NCBI GenBank assembly: GCA_009841335.1
Contig: VXLY01000112.1
Span: forward strand, 1 to 64,000
DNA: 64,000 nucleotides
DNA from: Rhodothermaceae bacterium
GTDB lineage: Bacteria > Bacteroidota > Rhodothermia > Rhodothermales > Bin80
Direction of reading: 5' to 3'
A model generated the notes under the pieces. It worked only from the letters and a program-made list of their open reading frames with translations, was not told the DNA's origin and made no database searches. Below are positions 760 through 16,384 of this stretch, piece after piece. Position numbers and translations under genes: made by a program. Numbering within the stretch: the first letter of the stretch is position 1; the number at the start of each line of letters is the position of its first letter.

Positions 760-793
760 CGGCTTAGACTCTGTTTTCGTAGAGGCGTGCGGA

Positions 794-1156
794 TTAGGGT
801 TTCTTCATATACTCCACTAGAAACACCGCGGGTCGATTGAAGGACTCAAGAACCTGGTGAATTTCTAGAAGTCTGAGTGCGTCTGCCTCTGCATCAACCC
901 GGAGCTCCACTGGGCGTCCAGACTCCGAGCTGATCTCGGCCAGTTCCTGGGCGGTGGATTCTCCCATCCCCTCCACCTGCATCGCGCCAGAGAAATCAAC
1001 AGATGCTTTGACAGGAAATGGAATCCCGCCCTGATCTTCCAGGTCCTGACTCACTGGGATGACTACCTCCTGATCCGAGATTTTGACGATCGCGAGCAGG
1101 CTCAACAGAAGCAGGAGGGTCAAGTCCACCAGACGTACGAGGAAGTTTGATTGCAT
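794..1156 (-). CDS. exbD: ExbD/TolR-like biopolymer transport protein (first copy)
   Basis: This 120-residue protein has a single N-terminal transmembrane helix with Asp11 at its start (V-D-L-T-L), followed by a periplasmic domain with the mixed alpha/beta pattern of ExbD. ExbD works with ExbB as a proton-driven motor that energises TonB or a Tol-like partner. It begins 6 bp after the ExbB-like gene. Two unlike ExbD paralogues in one operon are common in Bacteroidota and relatives and may form a mixed dimer inside the ExbB pentamer; that is inference. Confidence 0.75.
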   Translation of the reverse strand: MQSNFLVRLVDLTLLLLLSLLAIVKISDQEVVIPVSQDLEDQGGIPFPVKASVDFSGAMQVEGMGESTAQELAEISSESGRPVELRVDAEADALRLLEIHQVLESFNRPAVFLVEYMKKP

Positions 1157-1162
1157 ATACTC

Positions 1163-1894
1163 TCAGCTTTTACCTGTTTGATCGCGCTTATTACGCTTCC
1201 GCCCCGAAGCCAGGTGTAGGGAGATGAGGCGCTCTGCCACGCCCTCTCCCCACGCCCGCGAATCTGCGAGATGCCTGGAGGTGAACCTCATAACAAACGT
1301 GTCCGCGGCCTCCAACATCAGGCTGGCCGCAATCCCCAAGAGCGTAGACACGACGGCCAGACTGATCCCGACGAACACCGTGTTTGGGTCTGTGCCTGCC
1401 GACGCAAAGCTCACGTAAATTCCAACGAGGGTGCCGGCGAGACCCAATCCTCCTGCAGCGCTAGAGCAGTAGGCAACTACCCGCCGCGTAATACCCAGGG
1501 ATTCTTCTTTCGCCTTGAGGATCCCACTGACTGCACGCACGAGTGACGAGTGTTCCGTGTCCAGTTGAAAGCGGCGCAGCACTCCCCGCAGGAGTAAATG
1601 GTACGTGCTATGCCCCTCCAGGGTGGCAGCACTGCGAAGGTCCCTGGTCGACACGCGTTCAATGTCCAGTTTTCGCAGCGTTGTAGCGGAGACATGATCA
1701 CGGTAAGTGCCGACTATAATCTGAGCCAGGAGCGCCAGCCCCAGGACGAATACACCAAGGATCGGCCACTGAAATCCTCCCGCCAACCCGATCACATCCA
1801 GGATGTTTTGCGCAGATGAGGGCGAATTATCAGGAAGGACTGCAGCAGAGTCCTGGACAAGCTGTGTTGCATCCTGCAGGCGGAGGAATAACAT
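1163..1894 (-). CDS. exbB: MotA/TolQ/ExbB-family proton channel
   Basis: The protein has three hydrophobic segments: near residues 38-58 and, after a cytoplasmic loop, two C-terminal helices (about 145-170 and 180-205) with the Gly-rich A-A-G-G-L-G-L-A-G-T-L-V-G-I segment typical of MotA/TolQ/ExbB. The family forms the pentameric proton channel of the TonB system. The start used here is the ATG at 1894, giving 244 residues. A TTG at 1942 would add 16 residues, but that stretch is AT-rich and looks like untranslated leader. It is first in an operon with two ExbD-like genes and a TonB-like gene. Confidence 0.8.
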   Translation of the reverse strand: MLFLRLQDATQLVQDSAAVLPDNSPSSAQNILDVIGLAGGFQWPILGVFVLGLALLAQIIVGTYRDHVSATTLRKLDIERVSTRDLRSAATLEGHSTYHLLLRGVLRRFQLDTEHSSLVRAVSGILKAKEESLGITRRVVAYCSSAAGGLGLAGTLVGIYVSFASAGTDPNTVFVGISLAVVSTLLGIAASLMLEAADTFVMRFTSRHLADSRAWGEGVAERLISLHLASGRKRNKRDQTGKS

Positions 1895-2178
1895 GTGTGA
1901 GGGAGACTGAAAAATATATACGAATATATTATCATTTATCAATATAAAGCCGAAAAACCAAGAATGTTCCTGTATTCAGGGTAATTTGAGCGGGTTTGGG
2001 AGACCAAGTACCGTTTTGACGAGATTCCTAGACGGCCTACGGACCGCCGATCACTGTAGTGGATTCGAGACGTTTGGCTCAATATACCCTTCTATGAGGG
2101 CTAAATGATGGTTATCGGGGAAACAGTGGGCATAATATATATTATAACAATACATTGAGACAGCGGCGATGAAATAGA
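1895..2178. promoter_or_regulatory. AT-rich intergenic leader between relaxase 3' end and exbB operon
   Basis: No gene is seen. The stretch is conspicuously AT-rich around 1911-1950 and 2131-2160, unlike the coding DNA on both sides, and it should hold the promoter of the minus-strand exbB operon. No clear promoter motif was found. Confidence 0.35.
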
Positions 2179-3222
2179 TCAGCGCTGTAATCGATGTTCC
2201 AATCCCCGATCTTCAAGGCCCTCCCCAACCTCTCTCCGATCCCGTCCAACTCGGCCCCGCCAGTCAGAGTCCACTCCCTTCCCCCAGGCAGGCTTCTTTG
2301 GGAGTTCTATCGCCTCGACCCCTCTTTGAGCCAACTTGTCATAGACATCTGTCGCCTTGGCGTGTCCCTGGGCGCTTGCCAGCTCATACCAGCCCATTGC
2401 AATCCGGAGATCCTGTTTTACTCCTGCTCCCAGGCGAAAGACCTCCCCCATTTGCCACTGGCAATGAGCGTCCCCATCCACAGCTCGCTTCCAGCAGCCC
2501 GCGAGCTGCCTTGCATTCTGAGGGAGGTTTGACGGCATCGTCAGCGTCTGACCGTCTTCGGTCAACGACATAATAAACTTGTCCGGGGCAGGCTGCCCTT
2601 CGTTTGGTGGTGGCAATCCCTTTTTCTTGTTTGAGTATACTCCCGCTTTTGTGGTAGCCCTTCGAGGGGGGATTTCATGACCGGGGAGACTGGCATGTCG
2701 CCCAGGGACCTCACGCCAACCAAATTGCCGTTCCATTGATCGCAGTGTTCGTTGAATGGTTGCATAATCTTTGGAGCCCCGCCACGCCGTGCAGGTCACA
2801 GGATGAACCCGATTTACCAATATGTGCATATGCGGATGAGGTCGGTCTCGATGCCTCGCCACAATCGCCTGATGCTCTTCAAGCCCCAGGTCTTTGAGCA
2901 TTCGTTTTGCCACCAAGGTCATTTCTTCATTGGTTACGGTTTCAGCCTCCAGCTTTTTGATGTCACCCCCCATCTCTTTTATGGTTTTTCTCTGCTCATC
3001 ACTCATGTCATTCGGATCCCAACTTATGATGAGGTGATAGAGAGGCTTCTTACATCGCTCGCTTTGTGACGCAGTCAGTTCTACCTGCGAGATGACCTGA
3101 TCCACCGTTTTCGCAAAGGGAATGTTTTGAAGAAACAAGGTCTCTCCTTTCTTCTTATCCATTACATAGGCAATTCTCTTCCCGATCTTTGCCCGCGAGG
3201 CTTTTCTTGTTTCAGCAACCAT
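2179..3222 (-). CDS. MOB-P-like relaxase with C-terminal Sel1-type repeats
   Basis: This is the DNA-nicking enzyme of conjugation, which cuts oriT and stays bound to the transferred strand. The metal-binding signature is R-P-H-P-H-M-H at residues 127-133 (three His), followed by I-L-V-N-R-V-H-P; Tyr19 in R-I-A-Y-V-M is the probable catalytic tyrosine. This pattern fits the Relaxase/VirD2-type MOB-P fold. After a Lys/Pro-rich linker, residues about 246-302 contain one to two Sel1/TPR-like repeats (G-D-A-H..L-G.G-V-K-Q-D....A..W-Y-E-L-A-S-A-Q-G-H-A-K-A), which is unusual for a relaxase. The C-terminus is Arg/Glu-rich. At 347 residues it is compact, with no helicase or primase domain. It lies 52 bp after the MobC-like gene. 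Confidence 0.85.
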   Translation of the reverse strand: MVAETRKASRAKIGKRIAYVMDKKKGETLFLQNIPFAKTVDQVISQVELTASQSERCKKPLYHLIISWDPNDMSDEQRKTIKEMGGDIKKLEAETVTNEEMTLVAKRMLKDLGLEEHQAIVARHRDRPHPHMHILVNRVHPVTCTAWRGSKDYATIQRTLRSMERQFGWREVPGRHASLPGHEIPPRRATTKAGVYSNKKKGLPPPNEGQPAPDKFIMSLTEDGQTLTMPSNLPQNARQLAGCWKRAVDGDAHCQWQMGEVFRLGAGVKQDLRIAMGWYELASAQGHAKATDVYDKLAQRGVEAIELPKKPAWGKGVDSDWRGRVGRDRREVGEGLEDRGLEHRLQR

Positions 3223-3274
3223 CAGTAATCAAAGATTGGTAGTCCTGCATAATGAGTCGCCACATTCTGCAGCG

Positions 3275-3943
3275 TCATGTCTTCCTATATTTCCTTCCAG
3301 ACGAAAATTCGTGGTTGAGTCGAATCACTCTCATCCCGATTCTCACGGTCTTCCCTACAATGTCAACGGTTGCAAAGCGACACTCACTCATCTGATTCAG
3401 ATTACTCAACCACTTCTGGAGCCCATGCATCACCCCGCTCCACGCCTTCCTGCCGAGTGGGCCCTGCAGCGCGGCTGACCGCACAAAGGAGGACTGTGGC
3501 AATCCCACCAGTTCGGCACGCTCCTTAATCCTGACCAATTCTTCTGCAGACCCGCGGACCCATCCCCGATGCTTCCGGCTTCCAGGTCCCTTCTGCGTCT
3601 GATACACTCGGATCCATTCCGTCTGGGGGATCCCGTCTAGGGTGCCCTCAAGTTCTGAGAGAATCCAGCGAAGTCTCTCCGGACGGACGTCTCCACCCTG
3701 GTTAACAAAATGCATTATATCGTTCAGCTTGTGGCCCACGCGGTCGACCCGCTTCGCAAGACCATGGACCAGATCTACCCCGATGTCGCATGTCAATGCG
3801 GCTTGCCGAATGTATCGGTTGATGGAGAGCTTCGCGTAGGCTGCGCGCCTCTTTACAGACTCATACTCCTGGTCGCTCATGTAAATCCGAGGACCAGGAA
3901 GTGATCTATAGATCCGTGACGGATTCACTCTTCCAGGTTCCAT
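3275..3943 (-). CDS. mobC: MobC-like relaxosome accessory protein, internally duplicated
   Basis: A basic 222-residue protein directly upstream of the relaxase. Two copies of a MobC-type RHH/helical motif are visible. The first runs from about residue 20 (S-D-Q-E-Y-E-S-V-K-R-R-A ... L-S-I-N-R-Y-I-R-Q-A-A-L). The second starts near residue 117 (S-A-E-E-L-V-R-I-K-E-R-A ... L-P-Q-S-S-F-V-R-S-A-A-L). MobC proteins bind and open oriT so that the relaxase can nick. A normal MobC has one such unit in about 100-130 residues, so this looks like a fused tandem duplicate. The ATG at 3943 was preferred over a TTG at 4030, because the added 29 residues show no domain. Confidence 0.75.
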   Translation of the reverse strand: MEPGRVNPSRIYRSLPGPRIYMSDQEYESVKRRAAYAKLSINRYIRQAALTCDIGVDLVHGLAKRVDRVGHKLNDIMHFVNQGGDVRPERLRWILSELEGTLDGIPQTEWIRVYQTQKGPGSRKHRGWVRGSAEELVRIKERAELVGLPQSSFVRSAALQGPLGRKAWSGVMHGLQKWLSNLNQMSECRFATVDIVGKTVRIGMRVIRLNHEFSSGRKYRKT

Positions 3944-4250
3944 TTTACTGCCGGGACTGTCCCCAGCCACTTCTCGCGCGACCCTCAGCGCACAAAATTC
4001 GCCAAATTTTACCCCGTCTTTTGGGTACAAAAGACATAGCTTGCAGGGCTATTCGCGGCACCCCCCAACCGCCAAGAATCCCGCCGCAACCGCTCACTGC
4101 CCACCTCCCCCCGGAAATGGACCGAATCCACATAAAGTGGATCCGGGAATTTATCGTTACAGAACTCGATCCGTGCCTCATTCGCGGCACGGATCGACAA
4201 TCCCCGCCAAGGCAATAAAGCAAATAGCGAAGGTGTGCTGCATTTTATCG
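3944..4250. other. Candidate oriT region (inverted and direct repeats upstream of mobC)
   Basis: A 307-bp gene-free stretch between the MobC-like gene and the HTH gene. It holds a perfect 11-bp inverted repeat CGATCCGTGCC/GGCACGGATCG at 4167-4177 and 4186-4196 with an 8-base loop. A 6-bp inverted repeat ATCCAC/GTGGAT lies at 4126-4131 and 4137-4142. A 12-bp direct repeat TTTATCGTTACA lies at 4150-4161 and 4244-4255. Inverted repeats immediately upstream of mobC and the relaxase are the usual setting of a transfer origin; the nick site was not identified. Confidence 0.5.
4167..4196. repeat. Perfect 11-bp inverted repeat (possible oriT hairpin)
   Basis: The arms are CGATCCGTGCC (4167-4177) and GGCACGGATCG (4186-4196), separated by TCATTCGC. 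It is the strongest dyad in the region upstream of the mobilisation genes and could be the relaxase or MobC recognition hairpin, or an operator for the adjacent HTH protein. Confidence 0.6.
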
Positions 4251-4730
4251 TTACATATGAGCACGGAGTGGAGCGGCAAAAAGAGTATACTGGGTGACCG
4301 TTCGGCTGACACGCGTTGACGAAATGAGGGTTACACATTCAAGTCTGCGCATCACTCTCGATACAGACACCCTTGAGATTCCGACCCGATCTGCGATCTC
4401 TCCCTGTTTCAACGCTAGGCATTGGAGATAAGTGGGAGATTCGGGGTTTAGGTCTGCATGGTCTGCAAGCATCTGAAGAACAGCCCGTGTGTAGTCTCTC
4501 CGGTTCGGCTTCCGGGTACTCTTGACCACCCACTGCCTCAATGATTCACGACGCTCCTCCCGACTCATCAGTGCATCTACCTGGCACAACGCCTTCGTAG
4601 GGAGTGCCCCCGTTCCCTGAGGGAGGGGAGCCAGTTTGGGTCGGCCCTGCTTTCGCCTGAGAGTTATAGGTGAAGAACTCTCTATATCATCAACCTGGAA
4701 GTCAAATAGACTTGGGGCGTATTTACTCAT
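4251..4730 (-). CDS. Winged-HTH DNA-binding protein, possible regulator of transfer
   Basis: A 159-residue basic protein. The C-terminal half contains a helix-turn-helix at about residues 108-135 (L-K-Q-G-E-I-A-D-R-V-G-I-S-R-V-S-V-S-R-V-M-R-R-L-E), the winged type used by Crp/MarR-like and plasmid proteins. The N-terminal 60 residues are Pro/Lys-rich and probably disordered. It is divergent from the trb operon across a very AT-rich intergenic region, which suits a local regulator of that operon or of the mob genes. The last codons overlap one copy of the TTTATCGTTACA repeat. No family name can be given. Confidence 0.6.
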   Translation of the reverse strand: MSKYAPSLFDFQVDDIESSSPITLRRKQGRPKLAPLPQGTGALPTKALCQVDALMSREERRESLRQWVVKSTRKPNRRDYTRAVLQMLADHADLNPESPTYLQCLALKQGEIADRVGISRVSVSRVMRRLECVTLISSTRVSRTVTQYTLFAAPLRAHM

Positions 4731-4959
4731 CTGCTATACATTCTTGGGAAATAATATTATAATATAAATTATATCATATTATATATCATTTAGCGGTTAA
4801 AGCCCCACAATCCAGCTTTAATACTCCTACACCTGTCAAATTGAGCAGGAATGATATTGAACACGCTCTGTAACAAATTAATATAATATTATTGTTAATT
4901 TTATTGGAACAAATCATTTGACTGACCTGTTTCGGCAGAAATCAACATCTCTTACTCAC
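4731..4959. promoter_or_regulatory. AT-rich divergent promoter region of HTH gene and trb operon
   Basis: The segment between the HTH gene and virB2 is strongly AT-rich (ATAATATTATAATATAAATT near 4750 and TTAATATAATATTATTG near 4879). It must carry the start signals for the twelve-gene transfer operon on the plus strand and the HTH gene on the minus strand. No exact consensus was assigned. Confidence 0.5.
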
Positions 4960-5301
4960 ATGAACTACGCATCCAAACAACCGCATCCCGCTCGCCAGAT
5001 GACAGCATTTCTCGCCTGGACGTGCGCACTTTTGATCCTCAATCCTCCTATGGCTATGGCCGCTGTGGGTGTCGGGGAGGTGCAAGGCTTCCTCGGGGGA
5101 GTGACAGGTTTTCTGACCGGCCCAATGGCCACGAGTGTCTTGATCATCGCAGTGGTCGTCTGCGGAGTAATGTGGTTCGCCAACCGCCAGAATAGCGGCG
5201 GACAAACACTGGGGCGTATTGCGATTGCAGGCGCACTCATCATGTTCGCCGGCCCCATCATAAAATTGGTCGGTCCGAACCAGACTGGCGCGATCATGTG
5301 A
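4960..5301 (+). CDS. trbC: VirB2/TrbC-family conjugative pilin
   Basis: A 113-residue precursor. It has a cleavable hydrophobic leader ending near P-M-A-M-A-A, then two hydrophobic helices separated by a short polar loop (N-R-Q-N-S-G-G-Q-T-L-G-R). This is the pattern of VirB2/TrbC pilins, the subunits of the extracellular pilus. The ATG at 4960 was chosen over a TTG at 4918 because it places the signal peptide at the N-terminus. It is the first gene of the transfer operon. Its stop overlaps the start of the VirB3 gene (ATGATGA). The cyclisation or cleavage peptidase is probably the TraF-like protein at 14667. Confidence 0.85.
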   Translation: MNYASKQPHPARQMTAFLAWTCALLILNPPMAMAAVGVGEVQGFLGGVTGFLTGPMATSVLIIAVVVCGVMWFANRQNSGGQTLGRIAIAGALIMFAGPIIKLVGPNQTGAIM

Positions 5302-5618
5302 TGACCCAGCTAAATCAGGCCACTGTCTACAAGTCTCTCACTCAGCCTCCCATGCTGATGGGACTCCCCCAGACGGCTACGATTCTGGGGCTCGGGGGAA
5401 TATTCCTGGCCTGCGTTGCCTCTGGATACAACTTGATCGTAATCGGCGTCACGCTGGCTATCGCCATGTCTGCACTTCTCTTTCTCCGACGAATGTTCGA
5501 GAAGGAACCATTCATGATGGATATCCTCCCGGGCTATTTCAATTGGCCACCGTTCATGCCTCATCACAGTCGGACGAATCCACGGCCCGACTCCGTCCCC
5601 AAATCTCCGTATGACTGA
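5298..5618 (+). CDS. trbD: VirB3/TrbD-family inner-membrane T4SS protein
   Basis: A 106-residue protein with two adjacent transmembrane helices (about residues 25-65), preceded by the VirB3-like N-terminus Y-K-S-L-T-Q-P-P and followed by a hydrophilic Pro-rich tail. VirB3/TrbD anchors the VirB4 ATPase at the inner membrane. It overlaps the pilin gene by 4 bp and the VirB4 gene by 1 bp (TGATG), in the normal virB2-B3-B4 order. Confidence 0.85.
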   Translation: MMTQLNQATVYKSLTQPPMLMGLPQTATILGLGGIFLACVASGYNLIVIGVTLAIAMSALLFLRRMFEKEPFMMDILPGYFNWPPFMPHHSRTNPRPDSVPKSPYD

Positions 5619-8068
5619 TGTGGTGGCCCTTCATCTTTCTTTCTGGTGTAGCCGTGGGTACCGCGGCCGCACTCATGGTGAGGCAGTATCTGGTCTCCAG
5701 ACAACCCAAGGAGGTGGGACTTGCAGACCGACTTCCCTGGGCGCTGCTGGTGGCGGATGGCGTCATCCTGTGTAAGGATGCCACGCTATTGGGTGGGTTC
5801 GTGATCAGGGGCGACGACCTGACCACAGCTCCGCATACCGCAGTCAACCTGGCGGCGGATCTGGTACGGGAAATGATTGGCTACCTCCCGCCAGGATACA
5901 GTATCGAAATGAATGTCCACCGCAACGCACACCAGGCCTACCTTTCCAGTGGCGCCCGCCATTTCCCCACGTCTAAGTTGGAGGAAGTGGACAGGGAGCG
6001 GGAAATTCACTTCAGGATGCCAGGTCAGTACTACGCCAGCACAGCGACCCTCTTGGTGAGTTTCACCCCCCTGAAAGAGTCCGTCAGTAAAATGGAAGGA
6101 TTCTTTGTCAAGGGCACAAGCCTATCTGTGAACTATCCCGCTCTCATTGAAGGGTTCCAGCAAACCCTGGACGAGTTGACCGGGCATATGACCTCCGCCT
6201 TCTCAATCAACCGGATGGACTCCACTCGGCTGGTTACCGAGTGCAATCAATGTCTGTCCGGTGACCCCGAACCTGTCATCCCCGACGGAGGCTACCTGAA
6301 TTACGCGCTGGGTTGCGGCGACTGGTACACCGGCTTCACGCCGCGTTTCCGCGATCAGCACCTCCACCTTGTGACGATCACGAGCTTTGGCCCATCTGTC
6401 CTGGCCGCGTCGGGAGACTTCTTCAATACGATCCAAGACGATGTCCGGTGGCATCTCCGTTTCCTGCCTCTCTCCCGTGCGCAGTCCGAGGCCAAGCTGA
6501 AATTCATCCAGAAGAACTGGTTCACGCAGCGGAAGGGCCTTAGGCAGTTCCTCCCCGGGGGGGACAAGGAAGGACCAGCAATCGAAGATGTGCACGCCGT
6601 CGCCATGCAGAAGGAAACAGCAGAAGCTCATGCGGAACTCTCCAGCGGGGAATCCAGATTCGGCCATCTGAGCAACACCATTGTTGTACGCGACACGGAT
6701 GAAAAGCGTGGTCGTACACGTGCCATGGCCATTGTGCAGCGCGCACGGGAAGCCGGGTTCATTGCGATGATCGAAAGCGTGAACGCGCCGGCTGCATTCA
6801 TGGGATCGCTTCCGGCGTTCGGCGCGGTGAACCACCGCCGGTTCCTGGTGACCAGCAAGGTCGTGAGCCATCTCTTCCCTACCACGCAGTCCTGGACAGG
6901 GGACCCTGTCAACCCCAGCGCACTCTTCCCCAAAGATTCTCCTCCATTGATGCAGGTAAGTGGACGTGGGGCGAATCCATTCAGACTCCACCTCCACCAT
7001 GGAGATGTTGGACACACCCTTGTAGTGGGGGCGACCGGAGCCGGTAAGTCGGTCCTGGTAGGCAGCCTCATGCTGAGCTGGCTGCGCTACGAGCACAGTC
7101 GGGTCGTGTGTTTTGACCTGGGGCGGAGTCACGCCCAGCTTACACAGTCCGCCGCAGGGGCACATGTGGATCTGGGACAGGATGAGTCTCCGCCGTTACA
7201 GCCCTTACTCCATCTGGACACAGACACCGACTTCCTCTGGGCACAGGAATGGGTCACCGGCATCTGCGCTTTGTCCCAAGTCAAATTGTCCCCCGCAGAA
7301 AGGGTGGAGATCGGGGATGCGATCCAATTGGTCGCCGCCGAACTTCCAGAACACCGAACCCTTACCGCACTTCACACCTACCTACCACCGTCTATTCGGG
7401 AGGTCCTTGAACCATACACTGGAGAAGGAACTTTCGGCAGCATTTTTGACGGTGTTGAGACCGGAGGGGAATCGAACACGCGGATGAAGACCTATGAGCT
7501 CCGGGACGTACAGGACATGGGAGAGGCGGTCATCGGCCCACTACTTCTAGCTCTATTCCGAAAAGTGGAGCGCGCCTTGGATGGTCGCCCGACCTTGATT
7601 GTGATTGAGGAAGCATGGGCGGCACTCATGCGGAGCGACTTCAGCGACCGGCTTCAGAAGTGGCTCTTGACACTCAGAAAGCAGAATGCCTCGGTCATAA
7701 TTGTGGCACATAATCCGCTCCAGATCCAGTCCCTCCCGAATCACGGGATCATCACCGACTCGTGTCCAACGCGATTCCTTCTCCCGAACCCTGAAGCACG
7801 AGTACCGGCTCATGCCGCAGTCTACCAGTTTCTGGATCTGAATCCGCGCGAGATTGAGATGATCGCCACTGCGAAACCGAAGCGGGACTATTACTATAAG
7901 TCTCCGCGAGGCAGTTGTCTGTTCGACCTTAAGCTCGGCGCCAAGGCAAGGAAGGTTTTGATCCCGCCCAAGATATCGGATTCCGAACCAGAGCAGTCCG
8001 GGCTGAATGGACAGCTCAAGAACACGAACAATTTGTTCCAACCAGCTGTCTCTGTCCAACGCCTCTAA
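5618..8068 (+). CDS. trbE: VirB4/TrbE-family T4SS ATPase
   Basis: An 816-residue ATPase that energises pilus assembly and substrate transfer. It has an N-terminal hydrophobic segment (residues 1-22), the CagE/TrbE/VirB domain, then the ATPase domain. Walker A is G-A-T-G-A-G-K-S at about 471-478, and Walker B is T-L-I-V-I-E-E-A-W at about 659-667. The R-K-Q-N-A-S-V-I-I-V-A-H-N motif follows. The membrane segment at the start is a variant in which VirB4 has its own anchor besides VirB3. Length is normal for TrbE (800-850). Confidence 0.95.
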   Translation: MWWPFIFLSGVAVGTAAALMVRQYLVSRQPKEVGLADRLPWALLVADGVILCKDATLLGGFVIRGDDLTTAPHTAVNLAADLVREMIGYLPPGYSIEMNVHRNAHQAYLSSGARHFPTSKLEEVDREREIHFRMPGQYYASTATLLVSFTPLKESVSKMEGFFVKGTSLSVNYPALIEGFQQTLDELTGHMTSAFSINRMDSTRLVTECNQCLSGDPEPVIPDGGYLNYALGCGDWYTGFTPRFRDQHLHLVTITSFGPSVLAASGDFFNTIQDDVRWHLRFLPLSRAQSEAKLKFIQKNWFTQRKGLRQFLPGGDKEGPAIEDVHAVAMQKETAEAHAELSSGESRFGHLSNTIVVRDTDEKRGRTRAMAIVQRAREAGFIAMIESVNAPAAFMGSLPAFGAVNHRRFLVTSKVVSHLFPTTQSWTGDPVNPSALFPKDSPPLMQVSGRGANPFRLHLHHGDVGHTLVVGATGAGKSVLVGSLMLSWLRYEHSRVVCFDLGRSHAQLTQSAAGAHVDLGQDESPPLQPLLHLDTDTDFLWAQEWVTGICALSQVKLSPAERVEIGDAIQLVAAELPEHRTLTALHTYLPPSIREVLEPYTGEGTFGSIFDGVETGGESNTRMKTYELRDVQDMGEAVIGPLLLALFRKVERALDGRPTLIVIEEAWAALMRSDFSDRLQKWLLTLRKQNASVIIVAHNPLQIQSLPNHGIITDSCPTRFLLPNPEARVPAHAAVYQFLDLNPREIEMIATAKPKRDYYYKSPRGSCLFDLKLGAKARKVLIPPKISDSEPEQSGLNGQLKNTNNLFQPAVSVQRL

Positions 8069-8090
8069 CCATTCACCAACTGCCACATCC

Positions 8091-8939
8091 ATGAAGTCTC
8101 TACTCACGCTTACTGTCCCCTCACTTGTCCTGATCGTGGCAGGTCTGATGCCCTCGGCCGCGTCCGCACAGTGGACTGTCATTGACCCGGCGAACCTGGC
8201 TCAGGCCATCACCCAGGTTACGAAACTCGTGGAGCAAATCGATCTAATCAGAGAACAGATCGACCTCCAAGAGACCATCCGCAGAGCCGCCGATGATCAC
8301 CTGAATGACTTTAGGCAGAGCCTTGAGTCCAAGCTGGCCTTTGATGTGGATAAGTATTTGGATAGACATCTCTCAGAGATCCACCAGTTTGACAATGCGT
8401 CTCATGTGAACCCCGACGCGATCAGTTCAAAAACGAGATCCGAGACGGAGTTCATCGAATACTTCAACTATCACGACCCAGACAGGCTGCAAAACTACGA
8501 CCCGGCCGAGCATGAACGGATGCTCTTCACCTCAATCAATGAGAGCATGAACGAGATCCGCGATGCGCGTGCCAGGCTGACCACAACGGCAAGCGAGATC
8601 AAAGAACTCTCTCGCAAGGCACGTGCAGCATCTACCCCAGAGGAGCGAAGACAGCTTCAGATCGAAATCGACCTTCTGCAGGCGAAACAGGAGAATGAGG
8701 CACAGATGCTTACCATCTCCCGGGCTGATCTCGAAAACCTGCTGGAGATGAGTTCACATGCCGAGCTAACCCGCCAACGAAACGAGGCGATCTACTTGAA
8801 TGAGAGCTTAATTGCTGCGGGCTCCTTGTCCAACGAGGAAACAGAACGCCACATTAAAGATGTGGAGGCGGGGCTGACGACCAAGGGGGGGAATCCGAAG
8901 CAAGTCCATCTGCGCCCAACCTTCCGCAAAGGACAGTAA
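8091..8939 (+). CDS. trbJ: TrbJ/VirB5-like periplasmic T4SS protein
   Basis: A 282-residue protein with a signal peptide ending A-S-A-Q at about residue 24, then long amphipathic helices rich in Glu/Gln/Arg with heptad character (T-K-L-V-E-Q-I-D-L-I-R-E-Q-I). This is the plan of TrbJ and the related VirB5 minor pilin/tip proteins. Position between VirB4 and VirB6 supports the call. The ATG at 8091 gives a clean signal peptide; an upstream start at 8007 would run inside the end of trbE. Confidence 0.8.
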   Translation: MKSLLTLTVPSLVLIVAGLMPSAASAQWTVIDPANLAQAITQVTKLVEQIDLIREQIDLQETIRRAADDHLNDFRQSLESKLAFDVDKYLDRHLSEIHQFDNASHVNPDAISSKTRSETEFIEYFNYHDPDRLQNYDPAEHERMLFTSINESMNEIRDARARLTTTASEIKELSRKARAASTPEERRQLQIEIDLLQAKQENEAQMLTISRADLENLLEMSSHAELTRQRNEAIYLNESLIAAGSLSNEETERHIKDVEAGLTTKGGNPKQVHLRPTFRKGQ

Positions 8940-8947
8940 CCTGATCT

Positions 8948-9889
8948 ATGCCACCTGCCTTGTTTGACAACTGCAACGAATTTTCGGATGTCTTATGGTG
9001 CATCCAGGGCCAGGCCGTGGTTCTGACAGAGATGTGGCTGGGAAAAGCCTTGAGGTTCGCCCGCTATCTGTTCTACTCGCTCTTTGTACTGGAACTGATA
9101 GTGACAGGGTACCTCGCCTTGCAGCGACGTGGGACGTGGGACGAGCTCCTGCAGCAGGTGGCCACGAAAATGATTATCCTGGGCGTAATCTTGGTTGTCT
9201 TGCTCGGTATAGACCAGGCAGGGTCCCCATTCATCAGCCGCGTCCCCTTCGTTCAAGTCCCAGAGGCCGTCGCGCGGGACGTAGCAACTTATGTTGCGGG
9301 AACGAAGGATGTCAGCACTACCCCGGTGCACATCCTGATGAAAGGATTTAACTTGGCGGGCGAGTTTTTTAGTGTTGCAAGTTCATCTATCTCCGCGTTC
9401 AGTCTTTTCAACCTCAGCACGTTCGGGGTGCTTGTTCTGGTCATCCCGATTATAGTCTCCCTCCTCACGGTCGGCGTCTTCATTCGTCTGGCAGTGGAGT
9501 ACCTCAAGGTGATAATTGAAACCTACTTCGTCGTTGCTGTGGGGGCGTTCACGCTCTCCCTGATTGCATTCCGCGGGACCGCCCCTATCGCGTCGGGCTA
9601 TATCCGTTCTCTCGCGGCCCTCCTGCTGCGCATCTTCTTCCTCCTGTTTGTGATCCTGTTCGCGGTTGAGCTTGCCGAGGGCCTCATGACGGTCATCCGA
9701 AACTCCACCGGGGAATTCCCAGGCTGGGAGAACTGGGGGGACGTAGCCAAGGGGACCCTTCCTTTTCAGTTCACCTTTGCCGCGGCCATGATGCTGATCC
9801 ACGCCCTGATCCAACTCCCTGACAAACTGTCCCAGCAACTCACGGCCGGTCTTTCGATTGACTTCGCCGGGATGCTGAAACGACTGTAA
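8948..9889 (+). CDS. trbL: TrbL/VirB6-family polytopic channel protein
   Basis: This 313-residue integral membrane protein has at least six hydrophobic segments (about residues 35-58, 73-91, 140-175, 190-215, 218-245 and 265-285). VirB6/TrbL forms the inner-membrane stalk of the translocation channel. It follows trbJ after 8 bp and precedes the VirB8 gene, as in the P-type trb order. The C-terminus (S-Q-Q-L-T-A-G-L-S-I-D-F-A-G-M-L-K-R-L) is hydrophilic. Confidence 0.85.
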   Translation: MPPALFDNCNEFSDVLWCIQGQAVVLTEMWLGKALRFARYLFYSLFVLELIVTGYLALQRRGTWDELLQQVATKMIILGVILVVLLGIDQAGSPFISRVPFVQVPEAVARDVATYVAGTKDVSTTPVHILMKGFNLAGEFFSVASSSISAFSLFNLSTFGVLVLVIPIIVSLLTVGVFIRLAVEYLKVIIETYFVVAVGAFTLSLIAFRGTAPIASGYIRSLAALLLRIFFLLFVILFAVELAEGLMTVIRNSTGEFPGWENWGDVAKGTLPFQFTFAAAMMLIHALIQLPDKLSQQLTAGLSIDFAGMLKRL

Positions 9890-9891
9890 CG

Positions 9892-10572
9892 ATGCCGAAA
9901 AAAAAGAATCAGGCCGAGCAAGAGTCCCATGCATGGGAGAAAGGACGTGCTCAAATGGATCGCATGTATGCTGATCTGGCACTGCGCTGTCGGCAATGGA
10001 TGACGGCAGCACTAGCAGCAATGGCGGCCAGCATAGTTCTGGCTGGAGGCATTGTGATCCTGGCGGTCACAGACAAGGACAGCCCCTATGTCGTGGAGGT
10101 CGACAGATTTGGAGAGATACGCGCCGTCGGAGACATCTCGGTGCAGGATGTACCGGAACGTGCCCGCAGGGCGACGCTGTTTCGCACGATCAAACACATG
10201 CGGGAGATCCCCTCAGACGCACGTATCCTGAGTGCGCGCCATGAGACGGCGCTGGCTCACATGTCTGACAACGCCGCGGAGGTTTTCGCAGAGGACCTGG
10301 CCACCAGCGCAGACGCGCTGAACGAGATGCTACAAAGAAGACGGACACGATATGTGACAGAGCTGAAATCCCTGCTCCCGTTCCCAGACCGTCCCAACAT
10401 GTACCGGGTGACTTGGTCAGAGTCGGGGGGAGGCGAGACGGATCTATCGTATGAGGGCTTTTTCCAGATCCAGGACGGCATCCAGCCCACCCCCGCCCAG
10501 GCGCTCCACAATCCGCTCGGGATCTTCATCGCGAACTATTCCATCTCCACATTAACGACCGACGAAGAATGA
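9892..10572 (+). CDS. trbF: VirB8/TrbF-family bitopic T4SS protein
   Basis: A 226-residue protein with a short cytoplasmic N-terminus, one transmembrane helix at about residues 38-62, and a periplasmic NTF2-like VirB8 domain beginning S-P-Y-V-V-E-V-D-R-F-G. VirB8/TrbF is an inner-membrane assembly factor that binds VirB9, VirB10 and the pilin. Length and order are normal. Its stop overlaps the VirB9 start by 4 bp. Confidence 0.9.
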   Translation: MPKKKNQAEQESHAWEKGRAQMDRMYADLALRCRQWMTAALAAMAASIVLAGGIVILAVTDKDSPYVVEVDRFGEIRAVGDISVQDVPERARRATLFRTIKHMREIPSDARILSARHETALAHMSDNAAEVFAEDLATSADALNEMLQRRRTRYVTELKSLLPFPDRPNMYRVTWSESGGGETDLSYEGFFQIQDGIQPTPAQALHNPLGIFIANYSISTLTTDEE

Positions 10573-11483
10573 AAACTACCGCCTTTTTCACCGAAATCTT
10601 TTTGTGGGTAGCCGCTGCCGCCACGATCGCGCTCCTTGTGCATTCCGCGGCCGCTCAGTCCCCAGTCCCCGAGCGAATCGTGGACGCAGAAACCCCTCTT
10701 CAGCAGGCGATTGATGAACAGTTGCAGGTCTATGCAGCCGGAGGCCGCCCAGAAGTACTCCGTACCTCCAACGCGCTCATCTACCCGTTTGGGATCTATC
10801 AGCCTGTCCTGACTTGCACCGTACTGAGAATCTGCATTATTGAGCTCGAAGTGGGTGAGGAGGTCTATTCCATGGGGGTGGGTGATCAGGTGCGTTGGAA
10901 CATTGACCACGGCACCACGGGACCACAGGGGAGAACCATTTATCTAACCGTTGTCCCGACAGACTATAACCTGACGACTAATCTGGTCATTAGTACGGAC
11001 CGCAGGATGTACCACATGACCCTGGATTCACCTCCCAAGCAGGGAAGGAACGGCACGCTGAATCCACTGGAGCCGTATACCAGGCACGTGCGGTTCTACT
11101 ACCCCGAACAGATTCGCACATTGAGTTCAGCCCATCCCGACGAGGAGTCGGTCACACAGACGATCGGAGCTAAACTCGAAGACCTGCAATACGGATACAA
11201 CTGGCGCGCGGAGAACGGGTTTCCCTGGGAACCCTTAACAGTGTTTGATGATGGCAGGCGCGTGTTCCTTCGGATTCCTCCGGAGGCGAAGCCGAACGGA
11301 GTTCTATTGATAGGGACGCAGCGAGATTCCCAGCCAGGAAATTACCTGGTTCGAGACGGATTCCTGATCATTGAGCGCACATTCGATGAAGCCCGACTGA
11401 TCATTCCCGGCCCCGACCGCAAGCGCTTTCTCCGAAGGACAAGACAGACTCAACGCTCACTCATCATCACAAGAAGCCAATGA
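10569..11483 (+). CDS. trbG: VirB9/TrbG-family outer-membrane core protein
   Basis: A 304-residue secreted protein with a signal peptide ending A-A-A-Q, then the VirB9/TrbG beta-rich domain (I-Y-P-F-G-I-Y-Q-P at the N-side, Y-G-Y-N-W-R at about 215, and D-D-G-R-R-V-F-L-R-I-P-P in the C-terminal part). VirB9 forms the outer ring of the core complex with VirB10. No separate VirB7/TrbH lipoprotein was found next to it. It overlaps both neighbours by 4 bp. Confidence 0.9.
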   Translation: MKTTAFFTEIFLWVAAAATIALLVHSAAAQSPVPERIVDAETPLQQAIDEQLQVYAAGGRPEVLRTSNALIYPFGIYQPVLTCTVLRICIIELEVGEEVYSMGVGDQVRWNIDHGTTGPQGRTIYLTVVPTDYNLTTNLVISTDRRMYHMTLDSPPKQGRNGTLNPLEPYTRHVRFYYPEQIRTLSSAHPDEESVTQTIGAKLEDLQYGYNWRAENGFPWEPLTVFDDGRRVFLRIPPEAKPNGVLLIGTQRDSQPGNYLVRDGFLIIERTFDEARLIIPGPDRKRFLRRTRQTQRSLIITRSQ

Positions 11484-12448
11484 AAATTCTTTTCCGACGC
11501 CACACAGACTATGACCCGAGCGAAGTCAACGATCCCGCGCCACCGAGAGGGATTGACCGAAAAACCATTGTCCTGCTGGCCACGGGAGTAGGCGTAATGG
11601 TGGCGGTACTCTTCCTTGCGAATCAGAATGGATCCGACGAAGCTAATTCTGCCTCGCCCCCTGGGTTGTACCCAGACGTGGAGTATGGAGGAGTGTTTGA
11701 ACTGGGCACCCCCACGCCGATTGCCGAGCCTCCCGCTCCGGCGGAGTTGCCAGAGTGGTACGGAGGGCGATCGCGCCTCAGCACAGGCGAGGAGGAGGAT
11801 CCACGAATCACATCCTTTCAGAAAGCCATCGGGAGTGGAGGCCTCCTCCTGACAAGAGATCGCAACTCTGACAAAGTCACTGAGGCAGACGCAGACGTAA
11901 TGCAGCGCACTGCCCACGGTCCCCGCGTCCTGTTGGAGGGGTCAATGATCCCCGCTGTACTGGAAGCCCCGATCAACTCTGATCGTCCAGGTCCGGTCCG
12001 GGCAAGGGTGACGCAGGATGTCACGGATTCCCAAAGCATGACCCAGACGCTGATCCCGGTCGGTACCCGGGTACTGGGTGCAATGGGCGAGTTTGAGACG
12101 GGGGCGGTATCCGTCTCTTGGCACCGGCTCATCTTCCCTGATGGAAGCACCATGAATATCGGTGAGATGCCCTCCATGGATCGTGGCGGCGGTGGCCTGG
12201 TCGGGAACGTGGACCGTCACGCTTTCGCCTCTTTTGGACGAGGCGCGCTGATGGCGGTCCTGGGTGCCGTATCCACGGTAGGCACCGCGCAGTTGGGAGA
12301 ACATGGCGGTCTTTATGGCGGAGCACTGGCACAGCAGCTCGGCTCCGGCGGAACCCGAACCATGCAGCAGTTCAGGAGGCCCCCCACCATCACGGTGCCA
12401 CAGGGCCACTCCTTCCAGATCTGGGTTACACAGGACATTCAATTTTGA
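11480..12448 (+). CDS. trbI: VirB10/TrbI-family core complex protein
   Basis: A 322-residue protein with a cytoplasmic N-terminus, a transmembrane helix at about residues 30-48, a Pro-rich periplasmic linker (P-T-P-I-A-E-P-P-A-P), and the conserved TrbI/VirB10 beta-barrel domain (V-P-V-G-T-R-type G-T-R-V-L-G; R-L-I-F-P-D-G; final I-W-V-T-Q-D-I). It spans the periplasm and links the inner-membrane ATPases with the outer-membrane ring. It is rather short for the family (350-460), mainly in the linker. Confidence 0.9.
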   Translation: MKILFRRHTDYDPSEVNDPAPPRGIDRKTIVLLATGVGVMVAVLFLANQNGSDEANSASPPGLYPDVEYGGVFELGTPTPIAEPPAPAELPEWYGGRSRLSTGEEEDPRITSFQKAIGSGGLLLTRDRNSDKVTEADADVMQRTAHGPRVLLEGSMIPAVLEAPINSDRPGPVRARVTQDVTDSQSMTQTLIPVGTRVLGAMGEFETGAVSVSWHRLIFPDGSTMNIGEMPSMDRGGGGLVGNVDRHAFASFGRGALMAVLGAVSTVGTAQLGEHGGLYGGALAQQLGSGGTRTMQQFRRPPTITVPQGHSFQIWVTQDIQF

Positions 12449-12449
12449 C

Positions 12450-14219
12450 ATGTCTAAGGTCTACGGACACCGCGCTCCCCGCCAAAACAAGCGGGTGTTT
12501 TGGATTGCCGCACTGATCCTGTCCGTACCACTGGCGCACCTGATTGCCATGAATACCAGGGTCCTGTTGGTCGGTCCGCCCCATTCCGTTGAGCCTTGGG
12601 TGGAGCCGCAGGGTCTTCTGATGTACGGTTTGGGCATCGCTGTCCTGGGAGCCGCTGTGATGCTGCGTGCGAGCAGTCAACTGACTGGTGTCCTGCTGCT
12701 GGCGCTCGGAATATTCGTCATGTTTACACCGGTTTACTCACCAGTCCTATTGTGGCGCGCACTTGCGACTCAGTCCTCCTCCTTCGACCTACCAGTTGCG
12801 ATCGGATCAGGTCTGTTTTCACTTACGTATGGCTTCTTTCTTGTGTTCAGCATTCGCTACAGGAAAAGCGGCGTCAAAGGATCCTCCGACTGGGGAAAAG
12901 CTAAGGTGCTCCGGACAAGCCGTAGTGGTTTCGTACTTGGACGCGACCAGAAAGGCAACTTACTGAGGTACAATCGCGATGGGCACCTCATGACCGTCGC
13001 AGCAACGCGTGGCGGCAAAGGTGTTGGAACTATCATCCCGAACCTGCTCCTGCACCCCGGGAGCTTCATCTGCACCGACCCTAAAGCCGAGAACTGGTTC
13101 GTCACCCACGCGCACCGCGAACGCATGGGACAGAAGACCATAGCGCTGGACCCTTTCAATTTGACTGATGGCAAGGGGTCAGGCTACAACCCCATGGATC
13201 TGATCAACCTGGATTCCCCGGACCATGTTGAGATCGCGCGGAGCATGGCCCACAATATGATTCCGGACGCAAAGTCCGGTGACCCTCACTGGGTGAACGA
13301 GGCTCGGAGTGCTTTGGAGAGCATCATCCTCTTCGCCAAGTCCCTTCTCGACCCGGCCAAGCACAATCTAGCTACGGTGCGCAGAATGGTCAGCGGAGAT
13401 GCCGGGGGTATCAATAAACTGCTGCATGCCATGCAGAACTGCGAAGAATGTCCGGCCGTCCAGTTAGGTGCGAATCGCCTGCTCCAGAAAGACATCAAAG
13501 AACTCTCCGGAGTATTGAGCACTCTCCAGTCGAACACCCACATCTTCAGCAGCCCCCGCCTCACGGCGACCCTTTCCCAGACTTCCTTCACGAAAGAGGA
13601 CTTGCTGTCGGATAGCGCTTCCGTATACCTGATCGTCCCGGCCGAGCATTTGGAGTCCTATGCACCTTGGCTCCGGACGACAATCACAAGTATCTACCGC
13701 ATGATCACCACCGACACCCACAAGCGTGAGGTCAAACCAAAACACCGAATCTTGTGCATGCTGGACGAGTTTGCGAATTTGGGTAAGATGCCAGAGATAC
13801 TGAGCGCGGTCTCACTGGGAGCCGGGTTCGGGATCACCTTATGGCTCATCCTGCAGGACTTGTCCCAGGTCAGATCCAAATATGGAGGCGAGTGGAACAG
13901 CTTCTTGGCCAATAGCGATGTGATCCAAGTATTCAGTATTCAGGACCCATTCAGCTGCGAACAGGTCTCCAAGCTGCTGGGCGAAAAGACGGTCTGGCAA
14001 CGAAAGCTGGGACGAGTGGGCGAGAAAAAGCTTGCTCCGGAAAAGGGGTACGATGAGGATAGCCGCCCTCTGATGCGCATGGATGAGCTTCGCAGACTAC
14101 ATCCCGACCGGCAGATCCTGCTTGTGCGCCCTAACCAGCCAGTGGCGGCTACAAAGATCCGCTACTATAAGGACCCCGAATTCAAGCATTTGGCCTCCCC
14201 CAATCCGTATGTGTCATGA
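12450..14219 (+). CDS. traG: VirD4/TraG-type coupling protein
   Basis: A 589-residue ATPase that brings the relaxase-DNA complex to the channel. It has N-terminal transmembrane helices (about residues 16-34, 49-115), then the TraG/VirD4 domain. Walker A is A-T-R-G-G-K-G-V near residues 185-192, followed by the family motif F-I-C-T-D-P-K-A-E-N. The Walker-B-like L-C-M-L-D-E-F-A-N-L-G and the W-L-I-L-Q-D-L-S-Q motif follow. The ATG at 12450 is right after the trbI stop; an earlier start at 12303 lies inside trbI. No relaxase-specific C-terminal extension is present. Confidence 0.95.
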   Translation: MSKVYGHRAPRQNKRVFWIAALILSVPLAHLIAMNTRVLLVGPPHSVEPWVEPQGLLMYGLGIAVLGAAVMLRASSQLTGVLLLALGIFVMFTPVYSPVLLWRALATQSSSFDLPVAIGSGLFSLTYGFFLVFSIRYRKSGVKGSSDWGKAKVLRTSRSGFVLGRDQKGNLLRYNRDGHLMTVAATRGGKGVGTIIPNLLLHPGSFICTDPKAENWFVTHAHRERMGQKTIALDPFNLTDGKGSGYNPMDLINLDSPDHVEIARSMAHNMIPDAKSGDPHWVNEARSALESIILFAKSLLDPAKHNLATVRRMVSGDAGGINKLLHAMQNCEECPAVQLGANRLLQKDIKELSGVLSTLQSNTHIFSSPRLTATLSQTSFTKEDLLSDSASVYLIVPAEHLESYAPWLRTTITSIYRMITTDTHKREVKPKHRILCMLDEFANLGKMPEILSAVSLGAGFGITLWLILQDLSQVRSKYGGEWNSFLANSDVIQVFSIQDPFSCEQVSKLLGEKTVWQRKLGRVGEKKLAPEKGYDEDSRPLMRMDELRRLHPDRQILLVRPNQPVAATKIRYYKDPEFKHLASPNPYVS

Positions 14220-14689
14220 CCCGTCTTCCCCGCTTCACCCCGTTCGGCCTAATAATCCTTACCCTGATGCTCGCTGGCATCGTGAACTGGATGTGGTTCC
14301 TGCGACAGGACGCAGAAGAGATAGACGTAGGGCAGGTGTACCTTCGCGCCGGACTCCCCGACTCAGCGATGGTATCCGAAATCCTGACCACCGCCCCCAA
14401 CGAAGCCGGCTATCTCATGGTCACGATCTTGGCCTATGATCGCCTGGTAAGGATTGATCAGGTTGGCAGATGTACCTCAATTCGGCAGATATACGAGGCG
14501 TCGCGGGAGGTCATTCCCCTGCCGGTGCACCTACCTGACCAAGAAGCCTGCTTTGCGTACCGCATCCGATTTGACGTCCCGCTTCCGGGATCCGAAACCG
14601 CACTCCCGCTAACGGTTGCCGTAATCCACCCCGACGAGGATCGCCGCCTCCTCCATAAACCGTCCAATGACTCACACCCTCTCCCGTAG
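14216..14689 (+). CDS. Unrecognised bitopic membrane protein of the transfer operon
   Basis: A 157-residue protein with one N-terminal transmembrane helix (about residues 9-28) and a mainly beta-rich extracytoplasmic part with two cysteines (near residues 83 and 105). It overlaps the coupling-protein gene by 4 bp and the peptidase gene by 23 bp, so it is firmly part of the operon. The position between traG and traF suggests a role in pilus maturation or in the missing TrbH/TrbK functions. No family was recognised. Confidence 0.65.
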   Translation: MTRLPRFTPFGLIILTLMLAGIVNWMWFLRQDAEEIDVGQVYLRAGLPDSAMVSEILTTAPNEAGYLMVTILAYDRLVRIDQVGRCTSIRQIYEASREVIPLPVHLPDQEACFAYRIRFDVPLPGSETALPLTVAVIHPDEDRRLLHKPSNDSHPLP

Positions 14690-15341
14690 AGAGCGCCGGT
14701 GGATTACGGTCGTGATCACGCTTGTGCTCCTCGCCCCTCTGATCCCCACTGTACTCCGTACGGCGGGGCTGCAAGGAATAGTGTTCCGCGTGGTATCTCC
14801 CAGCCTCCCCCAAGGCTGGTACTGGATGGCCACCCAAGACAGCTTGATCGTTGGCTATCCCACGCTGGTTTGCTACCCGCAGGATGTCGTCTCATTTGGC
14901 GTGAGACGAGGATACTTATCCCCTGACTCTACACGCGCCCAGTCTCACTGCCCTCAGACGCTTGTATACGTGATCAAACCCATCGCGGCTCTTCCCGGGG
15001 ATACAGTCACGGTTACTAGGGACAGCCTCCGCGTCAACTCCCGTCCCTGGCTCCCTGCACATGTCCACGAACTTGACTCAAAAGATCGTCCGCTCCCGAA
15101 TGCCATTGGCACTCATGTGCTCAACGATGGGGAATGCTTTGCGCTGAGCCTCTGGCACTCCCGAAGTTATGACAGCCGCTACATCGGTCCCATCCCATGT
15201 CCGGTCGCCCCCCGGATCGCTTTTCCCTTCTCCCCGTCAGATGCGGCCCACGTCCACAGGATGGCACGTAGGCTCGCAGGGATTACGGACGCGGGCTCGC
15301 TTTCGTCACATGACCCAGCCAACGAACAAGAAGAAATCTGA
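14667..15341 (+). CDS. traF: TraF-type S26 peptidase (pilin maturation)
   Basis: A 224-residue membrane-anchored peptidase with one transmembrane helix at about residues 13-33. The signal-peptidase-like motif S-L-P-Q-G-W-Y gives Ser46 as nucleophile. K-P-I-A-A-L-P-G-D gives Lys104 as general base. The C-terminal region has G-E-C-F-A-L and S-Y-D-S-R-Y-I-G, the S26 box (S-x-D-S-R-Y-x-G). TraF of RP4 removes the C-terminal tail of the TrbC pilin and cyclises it, so this enzyme probably acts on the product of the gene at 4960. Confidence 0.9.
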   Translation: MTHTLSRRERRWITVVITLVLLAPLIPTVLRTAGLQGIVFRVVSPSLPQGWYWMATQDSLIVGYPTLVCYPQDVVSFGVRRGYLSPDSTRAQSHCPQTLVYVIKPIAALPGDTVTVTRDSLRVNSRPWLPAHVHELDSKDRPLPNAIGTHVLNDGECFALSLWHSRSYDSRYIGPIPCPVAPRIAFPFSPSDAAHVHRMARRLAGITDAGSLSSHDPANEQEEI

Positions 15342-16281
15342 CTTCCGAGTGGAGGGCATGATTCGCCGGCATCTCGGGCCGGTCATTCTCGCTGCACTAG
15401 AAGATGCGGATGTGGAAGAGGTACAGGTGAACCCGGACAGAAGTGTGCATATCATCACCTCCAGCAAGGGAGCGTACAAGTTGGTTGAGAATCCCACCCC
15501 CATCTCCGTTGAGAGCTTCCTGCGAGCCGTTGCCGCCAGCTCGAACACTCACATCAATTCATCCCAACCCTCGCTGGCAACAGTGCTTCCCGCTTCTCTG
15601 GGCAAGTGCCGGATTCAGGGATTCCTGCCCCCTCTTACCGAGGGTCCCGCATTCATTCTCCGAAAGCCTCCCTCCCGAATTATCAACCTGGACGAGTATG
15701 TGCGTCAGGGATCCCTCTCAAGACAGGGGATTGAGGTGATCCGGGAGCTGGTTGCGAAGCGGAAAAACATAATCGTAGCTGGCCCCACTGCGAGCGGGAA
15801 AACCACACTTTGCAACGCGATCCTGAGCGAGGTGGAAGACCAGTTCCCCAAGGAACGCATCCTTGTCCTTGAGGATACGCGCGAGCTCCATCTGAAACAC
15901 GAAAATCAACTCCGTCTCGTGACAACAGCCGAGCACACCATGCGGCATTTGGTCCGATACAGCCTCCGGTCCACTCCCCGCCGGATCGTTGTCGGGGAAG
16001 TCCGCGATGGGGCTGCGCGAGATCTACTGGATGCATGGATCACTGGTCACCCCGGTGCGTGCGCTACGGTGCATGGCGAAGATGCGCTAAGGGCACTGGG
16101 GAGGTTGGCCGCACTCGCGCAGGAAGCAACCCCTGGCGTGGATCAGAGGCGCATGGTGGCGGAAGCTGTCCATGCGGTCGTGTTCATCCACGGGCATGGA
16201 ATCCAGCGCGCCGTAGACGCGATCGCGGCAGTGGATGGATTTGATGGAGAAAAATACCTTCTCCGGTCTCTGCTAGGCTAA
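15310..16281 (+). CDS. trbB: VirB11/TrbB-family ATPase
   Basis: A 323-residue cytoplasmic hexameric ATPase of the GspE/VirB11 group. Walker A is G-P-T-A-S-G-K-T-T at residues 158-166. The Asp box is I-L-V-L-E-D-T-R-E-L, Walker B is R-I-V-V-G-E-V-R-D-G-A-A, and the His box is H-P-G-A-C-A-T-V-H-G-E. Placing trbB last rather than first differs from the RP4 trb operon. The ATG at 15310 overlaps traF by 32 bp; a GTG at 15169 would run deep in traF. Confidence 0.92.
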   Translation: MTQPTNKKKSDFRVEGMIRRHLGPVILAALEDADVEEVQVNPDRSVHIITSSKGAYKLVENPTPISVESFLRAVAASSNTHINSSQPSLATVLPASLGKCRIQGFLPPLTEGPAFILRKPPSRIINLDEYVRQGSLSRQGIEVIRELVAKRKNIIVAGPTASGKTTLCNAILSEVEDQFPKERILVLEDTRELHLKHENQLRLVTTAEHTMRHLVRYSLRSTPRRIVVGEVRDGAARDLLDAWITGHPGACATVHGEDALRALGRLAALAQEATPGVDQRRMVAEAVHAVVFIHGHGIQRAVDAIAAVDGFDGEKYLLRSLLG

Positions 16282-16384
16282 CCCAATCCCGTACAAAGAG
16301 AAATAGACCGGGGCGAGAATTTTGCGTCCGTATGGTGCGGCCTCCCTTTCGAACCATCTCACACCTCGTAGGGAGTCAACTCCT

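Follow-up and report, generated by a model that had tools for sequence, protein, structure and literature searches.

A MOBP-type relaxase with a C-terminal Sel1-type module and charged tail in two related bacterial species

A relaxase of 347 amino acids, encoded with an ATG start on the minus strand (2179..3222) of the window, that is, the whole 64,000-nucleotide stretch of Rhodothermaceae DNA analysed here, combines an HUH nuclease domain with a linker, a Sel1-type module and a charged C-terminal tail. The arrangement appears to represent a real and conserved domain swap within a known kind of enzyme, with a narrow distribution, and is undescribed within the open-access literature searched, where no published account of a relaxase-Sel1 fusion was found, other journals lying outside this scope.

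The nuclease domain (residues 1-175; 2698..3222, minus strand), delimited by Pfam, invariant columns, a structural model and Foldseek, matches the Pfam Relaxase profile PF03432 (E 1.2e-31; 110.2 bits against a cut-off of 24.6). Across 75 aligned related relaxases H124, H131, H133 and N137 are invariant, while Y19 is found in at least 90% of the sequences; the histidine triad is therefore assigned to H124, H131 and H133, and not to H129. The H-P-H-M-H motif is present at residues 129-133, which, together with the PF03432 match, agrees with the original prediction of a MOB-P-like relaxase with this motif. The protein contains both the single motif-I tyrosine and the three-histidine motif III by which MOBP relaxases are recognized; judged by its sequence, it is a MOBP-type HUH relaxase, and its catalytic residues are intact. 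The best NCBIfam family is NF041893 (TraI/MobA(P)), but the score of 104.9 bits falls below the equivalog cut-off of 250, and the protein is therefore labelled MOBP-type rather than an equivalog member. Its modelled nuclease domain shows pLDDT values mostly between 84 and 96, residues 71-100 excepted, and the closest solved fold is the relaxase domain of R1162 MobA (2ns6; Foldseek, E 8.5e-4). In alignment A3 (19 rows), only the window relaxase and its orthologue have an insertion of ~22 residues (73-94; 2941..3006, minus strand), with a low-confidence helix predicted at residues 75-83. The TraI/MobA(P) relaxases (NF041893; Relaxase plus TraI_middle, e.g. P. putida pPp1290 TraI) share with the window protein the nuclease domain, the motif-I tyrosine and the three-histidine motif, as well as an adjoining NikA/MobA-like gene and nearby transfer genes, whereas the window protein is without TraI_middle, carries a Sel1 module instead, and has the 22-residue insertion.

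The nuclease domain is followed by a linker (residues 176-236; 2515..2697, minus strand), which is modelled at low confidence in both models, includes seven prolines within residues 196-236 and is probably disordered. Beyond it, a Sel1 module (residues 237-302; 2317..2514, minus strand) is delimited by Pfam, phmmer and a model. The Sel1 profile PF08238 aligns over its full length (positions 1-36 of 36) with residues 252-287 (E 2.1e-6; 28.5 bits), below the curated cut-off of 30.7 bits in the Pfam search, while the same site scores 32.4 bits, above this cut-off, in a six-frame search of the genome, and the match in the orthologue reaches 25.9 bits (cut-off 30.7). Furthermore, residues 239-314 match Sel1-repeat proteins in a phmmer search against PDB sequences (best E 1e-17), and a local Sel1 HMM, built from 14 repeats of the C115 protein of the same genome, assigns 24.7 bits to the real protein, with no more than 10.7 bits reached in 20,000 copies in which residues 196-347 were shuffled. 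The Sel1 module previously suspected in the C-terminal half is thus upheld by the phmmer matches and by the shuffle control, in which its score lies far above chance.

A model of the C-terminal half, computed from an alignment (A6) in which the orthologous pair was joined by two Sel1 segments from a gene on a viral contig, predicts helices at residues 237-248, 252-264, 272-284 and 288-299 (block pLDDT 69-86), the two Sel1 rows biasing this model toward the Sel1 fold. The first model, in which these rows are absent, places helices at residues 241-247, 252-266, 271-284 and 288-298 (block pLDDT 33-45). Fourteen of the best 16 Foldseek rows for the C-half model are titled Sel1 or SLR, the others being LpnE and DELE1, with E-values between 0.004 and 0.05 and none below 0.001. 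Among the chains ranked by Foldseek, which form the scope of the VIA-align comparison, LpnE (6deh) aligns with Z 10.3 over 73 residues at 2.5 A. Sel1 helical hairpins of the kind predicted here are common to the Sel1-repeat proteins LpnE, LceB, SEL1L and HcpB (Z 9.9-10.3 over 70-80 residues); these proteins, however, consist of repeats throughout, whereas the window protein bears one full unit on an enzyme. Sequence matches and model together indicate that a Sel1-type module is present, with one full repeat (252-287) between half repeats and four predicted helices in two hairpins. The structure prediction proposed as a check, from an alignment that included two Sel1 rows, hence yields helical hairpins with a Sel1-like fold, and the extent first given to the repeats (246-302) was close, although the predicted helices begin at residue 237 and form a half, one full and a half unit.

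A full-length orthologue, 86% identical over residues 1-347, is encoded in a second species (genome G296), and is the one relative with the same fusion recovered by the search that the original prediction had called for. The same gene was found by the genome scan in MPNB01000014.1 (Rhodothermaceae bacterium bin80). Positions 2-16285 of the window and the G296 locus form a collinear transfer block of ~16.3 kb (85% DNA identity), and comparison of the two relaxases (Nei-Gojobori) gives dN/dS values of 0.155 for residues 1-195, 0.187 for residues 196-240, 0.131 for residues 241-302 and 0.055 for residues 303-347, the tail showing the lowest value within the relaxase. The Sel1 part and the tail are therefore as constrained as the enzyme itself. 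Values of 0.083-0.155 were obtained for VirB4, VirB6, VirD4 and the three putative VirB8-10 genes, and of 0.244-0.353 for the ExbB, MobC and HTH genes; VirB5 is excluded, its reading frame having been wrong. In both species, purifying selection maintains the Sel1 arrangement. As the two assemblies are fragmented, with 121 and about 190 contigs, it might be supposed that two genes were joined by an assembly error or frameshift; an identically arranged in-frame fusion in each assembly, with 86% identity between the two, in a collinear block and with its Sel1 part and tail under purifying selection, rules out such an artefact. It could also be supposed that the ancestral middle domain decayed and that a functionless Sel1 fragment was captured by chance and tolerated, as might befit a single unit found in two species only and scoring below the Pfam cut-off. 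Given that the dN/dS values of the Sel1 part (0.131) and the tail (0.055) are like that of the catalytic domain, in an element that is 85% identical, this is highly improbable.

Relaxase matches (E ≤1e-10) occur in 28 of 244 genomes of the class, with whole-length matches only in the own genome and G296. In a wider sample of the phylum, 65 of 296 genomes contain a match (E ≤0.001), many of these involving only the Sel1 part and lying in proteins of other kinds. A scan of an 84,980-species collection yielded 75 loci encoding relaxase relatives, the orthologue included; recruitment was by conserved relaxase peptides, and would therefore overlook very distant relaxases that are fused to Sel1. The 77 frames from these loci were reduced to 74 by excluding both fragments of a broken frame (L147) and a second frame at locus L137, giving 75 relaxases with the window protein. 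PF03432 is found in all 75, TraI_middle in 41, LPD7 in eight and Sel1 in two, namely the window protein and its orthologue, the remaining 73 being without Sel1. The C-terminus is thus indeed unusual for the relaxase family, but the suggestion of a separate relaxase subfamily in this phylum proves too wide: with the fusion in two of the 244 class genomes and two of the 75 scanned relaxases, it constitutes a small lineage of two related species so far rather than a phylum-wide subfamily. Among 72,556 plasmid records, 4200 match the relaxase query, none of the plasmid relaxases matching more than 80% of it in one place. One of those with an alignment reaching residue 303, the P. putida pPp1290 relaxase, was rejected as a candidate, as it carries TraI_middle and LPD7 and no Sel1. 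The C-terminal half matches 23 plasmid records, annotated at the matched site as Sel1/TPR, hypothetical, SPOR or nothing, and none as relaxase. Two scans of viral contigs with relaxase queries returned no close relatives, while the C115 Sel1 protein as query matched one viral-contig Sel1 gene.

In most closer relatives TraI_middle follows the nuclease domain, at the place where the window protein has its proline-rich linker and Sel1 module. The TraI_middle profile PF22863 has no Pfam match in the window relaxase or its orthologue, and a local TraI_middle HMM matches 44 of the 75 relaxases, neither Sel1 protein being included. In a maximum-likelihood tree of 74 nuclease domains (L134 was omitted as too short), the Sel1 pair joins L085 (97/84), a TraI_middle bearer by the local HMM, and its next neighbour by path, L077, is also a bearer. 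The pair is likely nested among TraI_middle bearers, though on a long stem (1.14), and long branches are flagged by the tree program. The coincidence of the fusion with the absence of a domain carried by 41 of the 75 relaxases argues for a swap rather than a simple addition, and the sequences are most simply read as the replacement of TraI_middle by Sel1. Sel1 repeats are present in nine of ten genomes of the genus (each of the nine with 3 to 97 significant matches), which makes the genus a ready donor, and the module may have been borrowed from these common Sel1 genes.

The relaxase gene forms part of a larger set of transfer genes. Next to it lies a MobC/NikA-like accessory gene (3275..4030, minus strand; 222 aa from the first ATG, the start being uncertain; Pfam NikA-like 1.4e-14), which also matches the NCBIfam plasmid mobilization MobA family below its cut-off (6e-10). 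The encoded protein contains two NikA-like stretches, perhaps representing a tandem ribbon-helix-helix. A Crp-type winged-helix regulator is encoded at 4251..4730 (minus strand; Pfam HTH_Crp_2 1.4e-7), and the region between these genes (4016..4255, no strand assigned) is a candidate oriT or control region, with repeats conserved in the orthologous locus. It contains a perfect 12-nt inverted repeat (4166-4177/4186-4197), of which one pair is altered on both sides and another broken in G296, and the direct repeat TTTATCGTTACA at 4150-4161 and 4244-4255, read by eye. The conserved repeats at 4150-4255 are thus a candidate oriT or operator. The ATCCTG nick core, a sequence used by only some MOBP subclades, is absent from window positions 3900-5000.

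Type IV secretion genes spanning VirB2 to VirB10 (4918..12448, plus strand) were assigned by profiles and in part by gene order. They encode VirB2 (4918-5301), VirB3 (5298-5618), VirB4/TrbE (5618-8068), VirB5/TrbJ (8007-8939), VirB6 (8948-9889) and three proteins read as VirB8-VirB10 (9892-12448) from gene order and sequence reading only. Also on the plus strand are genes for a VirD4/TraG coupling protein (12303..14219; NCBIfam PRK13876 1.3e-62 and VirD4 1e-52, both below equivalog-level cut-offs), a TraF-like S26 signal peptidase (14667..15341; Pfam PF10502 7e-13) and a TrbB/VirB11 ATPase (15169..16281; NCBIfam TIGR02782 8e-83). Farther along the window, ParA, DnaB and an HTH_36 protein are encoded in common with G296, in which a tyrosine integrase is also found on contig C9 (4164-5084); the window contig begins within the conserved block. 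In the window, genes for a relaxase, a coupling protein, VirB4 and further secretion components occur together, the combination by which an integrative and conjugative element (ICE) is recognized, and the element is most likely an ICE. A second element, on contig C36 of the same genome, contains homologues of the VirB2 to VirB8 genes and encodes a 335-aa relaxase with a related nuclease domain (31% identity over 157 aa) which, in contrast to the window relaxase, has TraI_middle and ends in DLGL.

Additional genes are observed around the transfer genes. ExbB-like (391-759) and ExbD-like (794-1156, no profile match) genes lie directly downstream of the relaxase gene, at 391-1942 on the minus strand; they are unusual neighbours for a relaxase and are conserved with it in G296. 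Three genes at 28362-37332 (minus strand) encode large secreted proteins rich in FG-GAP-like DG repeats, and SusC/SusD-like genes are located at 39685-44371, both being recognized by eye.

The charged C-terminal tail (residues 303-347; 2182..2316, minus strand), ending in LEDRGLEHRLQR, was characterized through dN/dS, pattern searches and composition. It contains 11 K+R and 10 D+E residues, with three of each in the last 12, and its ending resembles the RGL, DLGL or RGRG endings of many relatives. The pattern [RDEKQ]xG[LMFY], picked by eye, occurs within the last 14 residues of 13 of the 75 relaxases, compared with 52 of 1356 other frames.

Nicking and covalent attachment are established for the relaxase family, and Sel1 modules in general serve as protein docking surfaces. 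In the window protein, the nuclease domain would nick the oriT with the aid of the NikA-like accessory protein, and the relaxase would remain covalently attached to the 5' end, while the flexible linker would present the Sel1 module as a protein-binding surface, a role suggested by the general behaviour of such modules. We tentatively propose that, through the Sel1 module, the relaxosome is delivered to the coupling protein VirD4/TraG or a different relaxosome partner, and that this coupling protein recognizes the tail as a secretion signal. The docking to the coupling protein or MobC put forward in the original prediction is plausible. The type IV secretion and coupling protein genes adjoin the relaxase gene, and the coupling protein is suggested as partner by analogy with relaxases in which, according to PMC6509941, a BID domain and a positively charged C-terminal tail constitute the type IV secretion signal. 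These BID-domain relaxases, discussed there for alphaproteobacteria, resemble the window protein in joining a helical module and a charged tail to a relaxase (PMC6509941), so that the proposed two-part signal would be alike but derived from a different module. The helical module of the window protein is, in contrast, of the Sel1 type, no BID domain being matched in it at E up to 1 (Pfam), and its tail is not net positive, unlike textbook type IV secretion signals. Moreover, a docking surface made of a single Sel1 unit is small, and nothing favours VirD4 as its partner over MobC or a host protein. A relaxase with both TraI_middle and a BID domain (E 7.9e-8) is encoded in another genome of the same order (G404; L062:1249-3144, plus strand).

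The position of the Sel1 module, which is that of TraI_middle in the relatives, and the adjacent accessory protein with its two NikA-like stretches would also fit a role in relaxosome assembly, in which the module docks on this accessory protein or on the relaxase itself and takes over a presumed relaxosome-building role of TraI_middle, with no contact to the coupling protein. According to PMC12857230, the relaxase is brought to the oriT by an auxiliary protein in many MOBP systems, in keeping with such a role. For a TraI_middle relaxase, however, no relative was found in the PDB, and docking of this kind is possible but somewhat unlikely.

The proposal that the tail is a secretion signal for VirD4/TraG bears on a second protein, of 168 aa, encoded on contig C41 of the same genome (L043:2214-2720, minus strand) and, as a G296 copy, on contig C105 (13725-14228, plus strand). 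It ends in RERGLQHGLTR, its last nine residues following the relaxase ending RGLxHxLxR, and is otherwise unrelated to the relaxase, with a weak match to DUF5710 (E 0.072). The pattern RGL[EQ]HxLxR-stop has four hits in the two genomes together, each genome contributing the ends of its relaxase and 168-aa genes, and none in the reversed control; having been composed after both tails were known, it describes the match and is no blind test. A looser pattern (RGL, three residues, L, one residue, R, stop) has eight occurrences in the own genome against 11 in the control, so that nothing beyond the two strict tail hits in this genome can be drawn from it. The 168-aa protein is confined to the two Sel1-relaxase genomes (2/238 searched), and this joint occurrence supports the two genes belonging to one element or travelling together, although two sister genomes may share the 168-aa gene by descent and no link between contig C41 and the window contig was found. 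The 168-aa protein is thus a possible second transfer substrate. It is doubtful that the Sel1 module and the RGLxHxLxR tail form a new two-part T4SS signal, a code based on Sel1 rather than BID, by which the tail-bearing protein would be shipped with the DNA.

Adjoining the 168-aa gene, a 249-aa protein (L043:3054-3803, minus strand) contains a single Sel1 unit near its C-terminus (E 3.6e-5), with a 78% identical copy on G296 contig C105. This second single-unit Sel1 protein beside a tail-bearing gene, and the varied roles of Sel1 proteins, the PDB matches including LpnE and LceB of Legionella, could suggest that the Sel1 module has its role after transfer or in contact with a host factor, be it a donor or recipient protein, and is dispensable for core transfer. 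As the module sits on the relaxase itself, this is improbable.

The C-termini of relaxases help determine what brings DNA to the secretion channel. A Sel1 module in the place of the middle domain suggests that some of the relaxase interface can be replaced by an unrelated helical module, and the window protein, with ~150 residues beyond the nuclease, offers a compact case for studying relaxase recognition. Furthermore, the tail shared with a second protein suggests a way to seek co-transferred proteins in conjugative elements.
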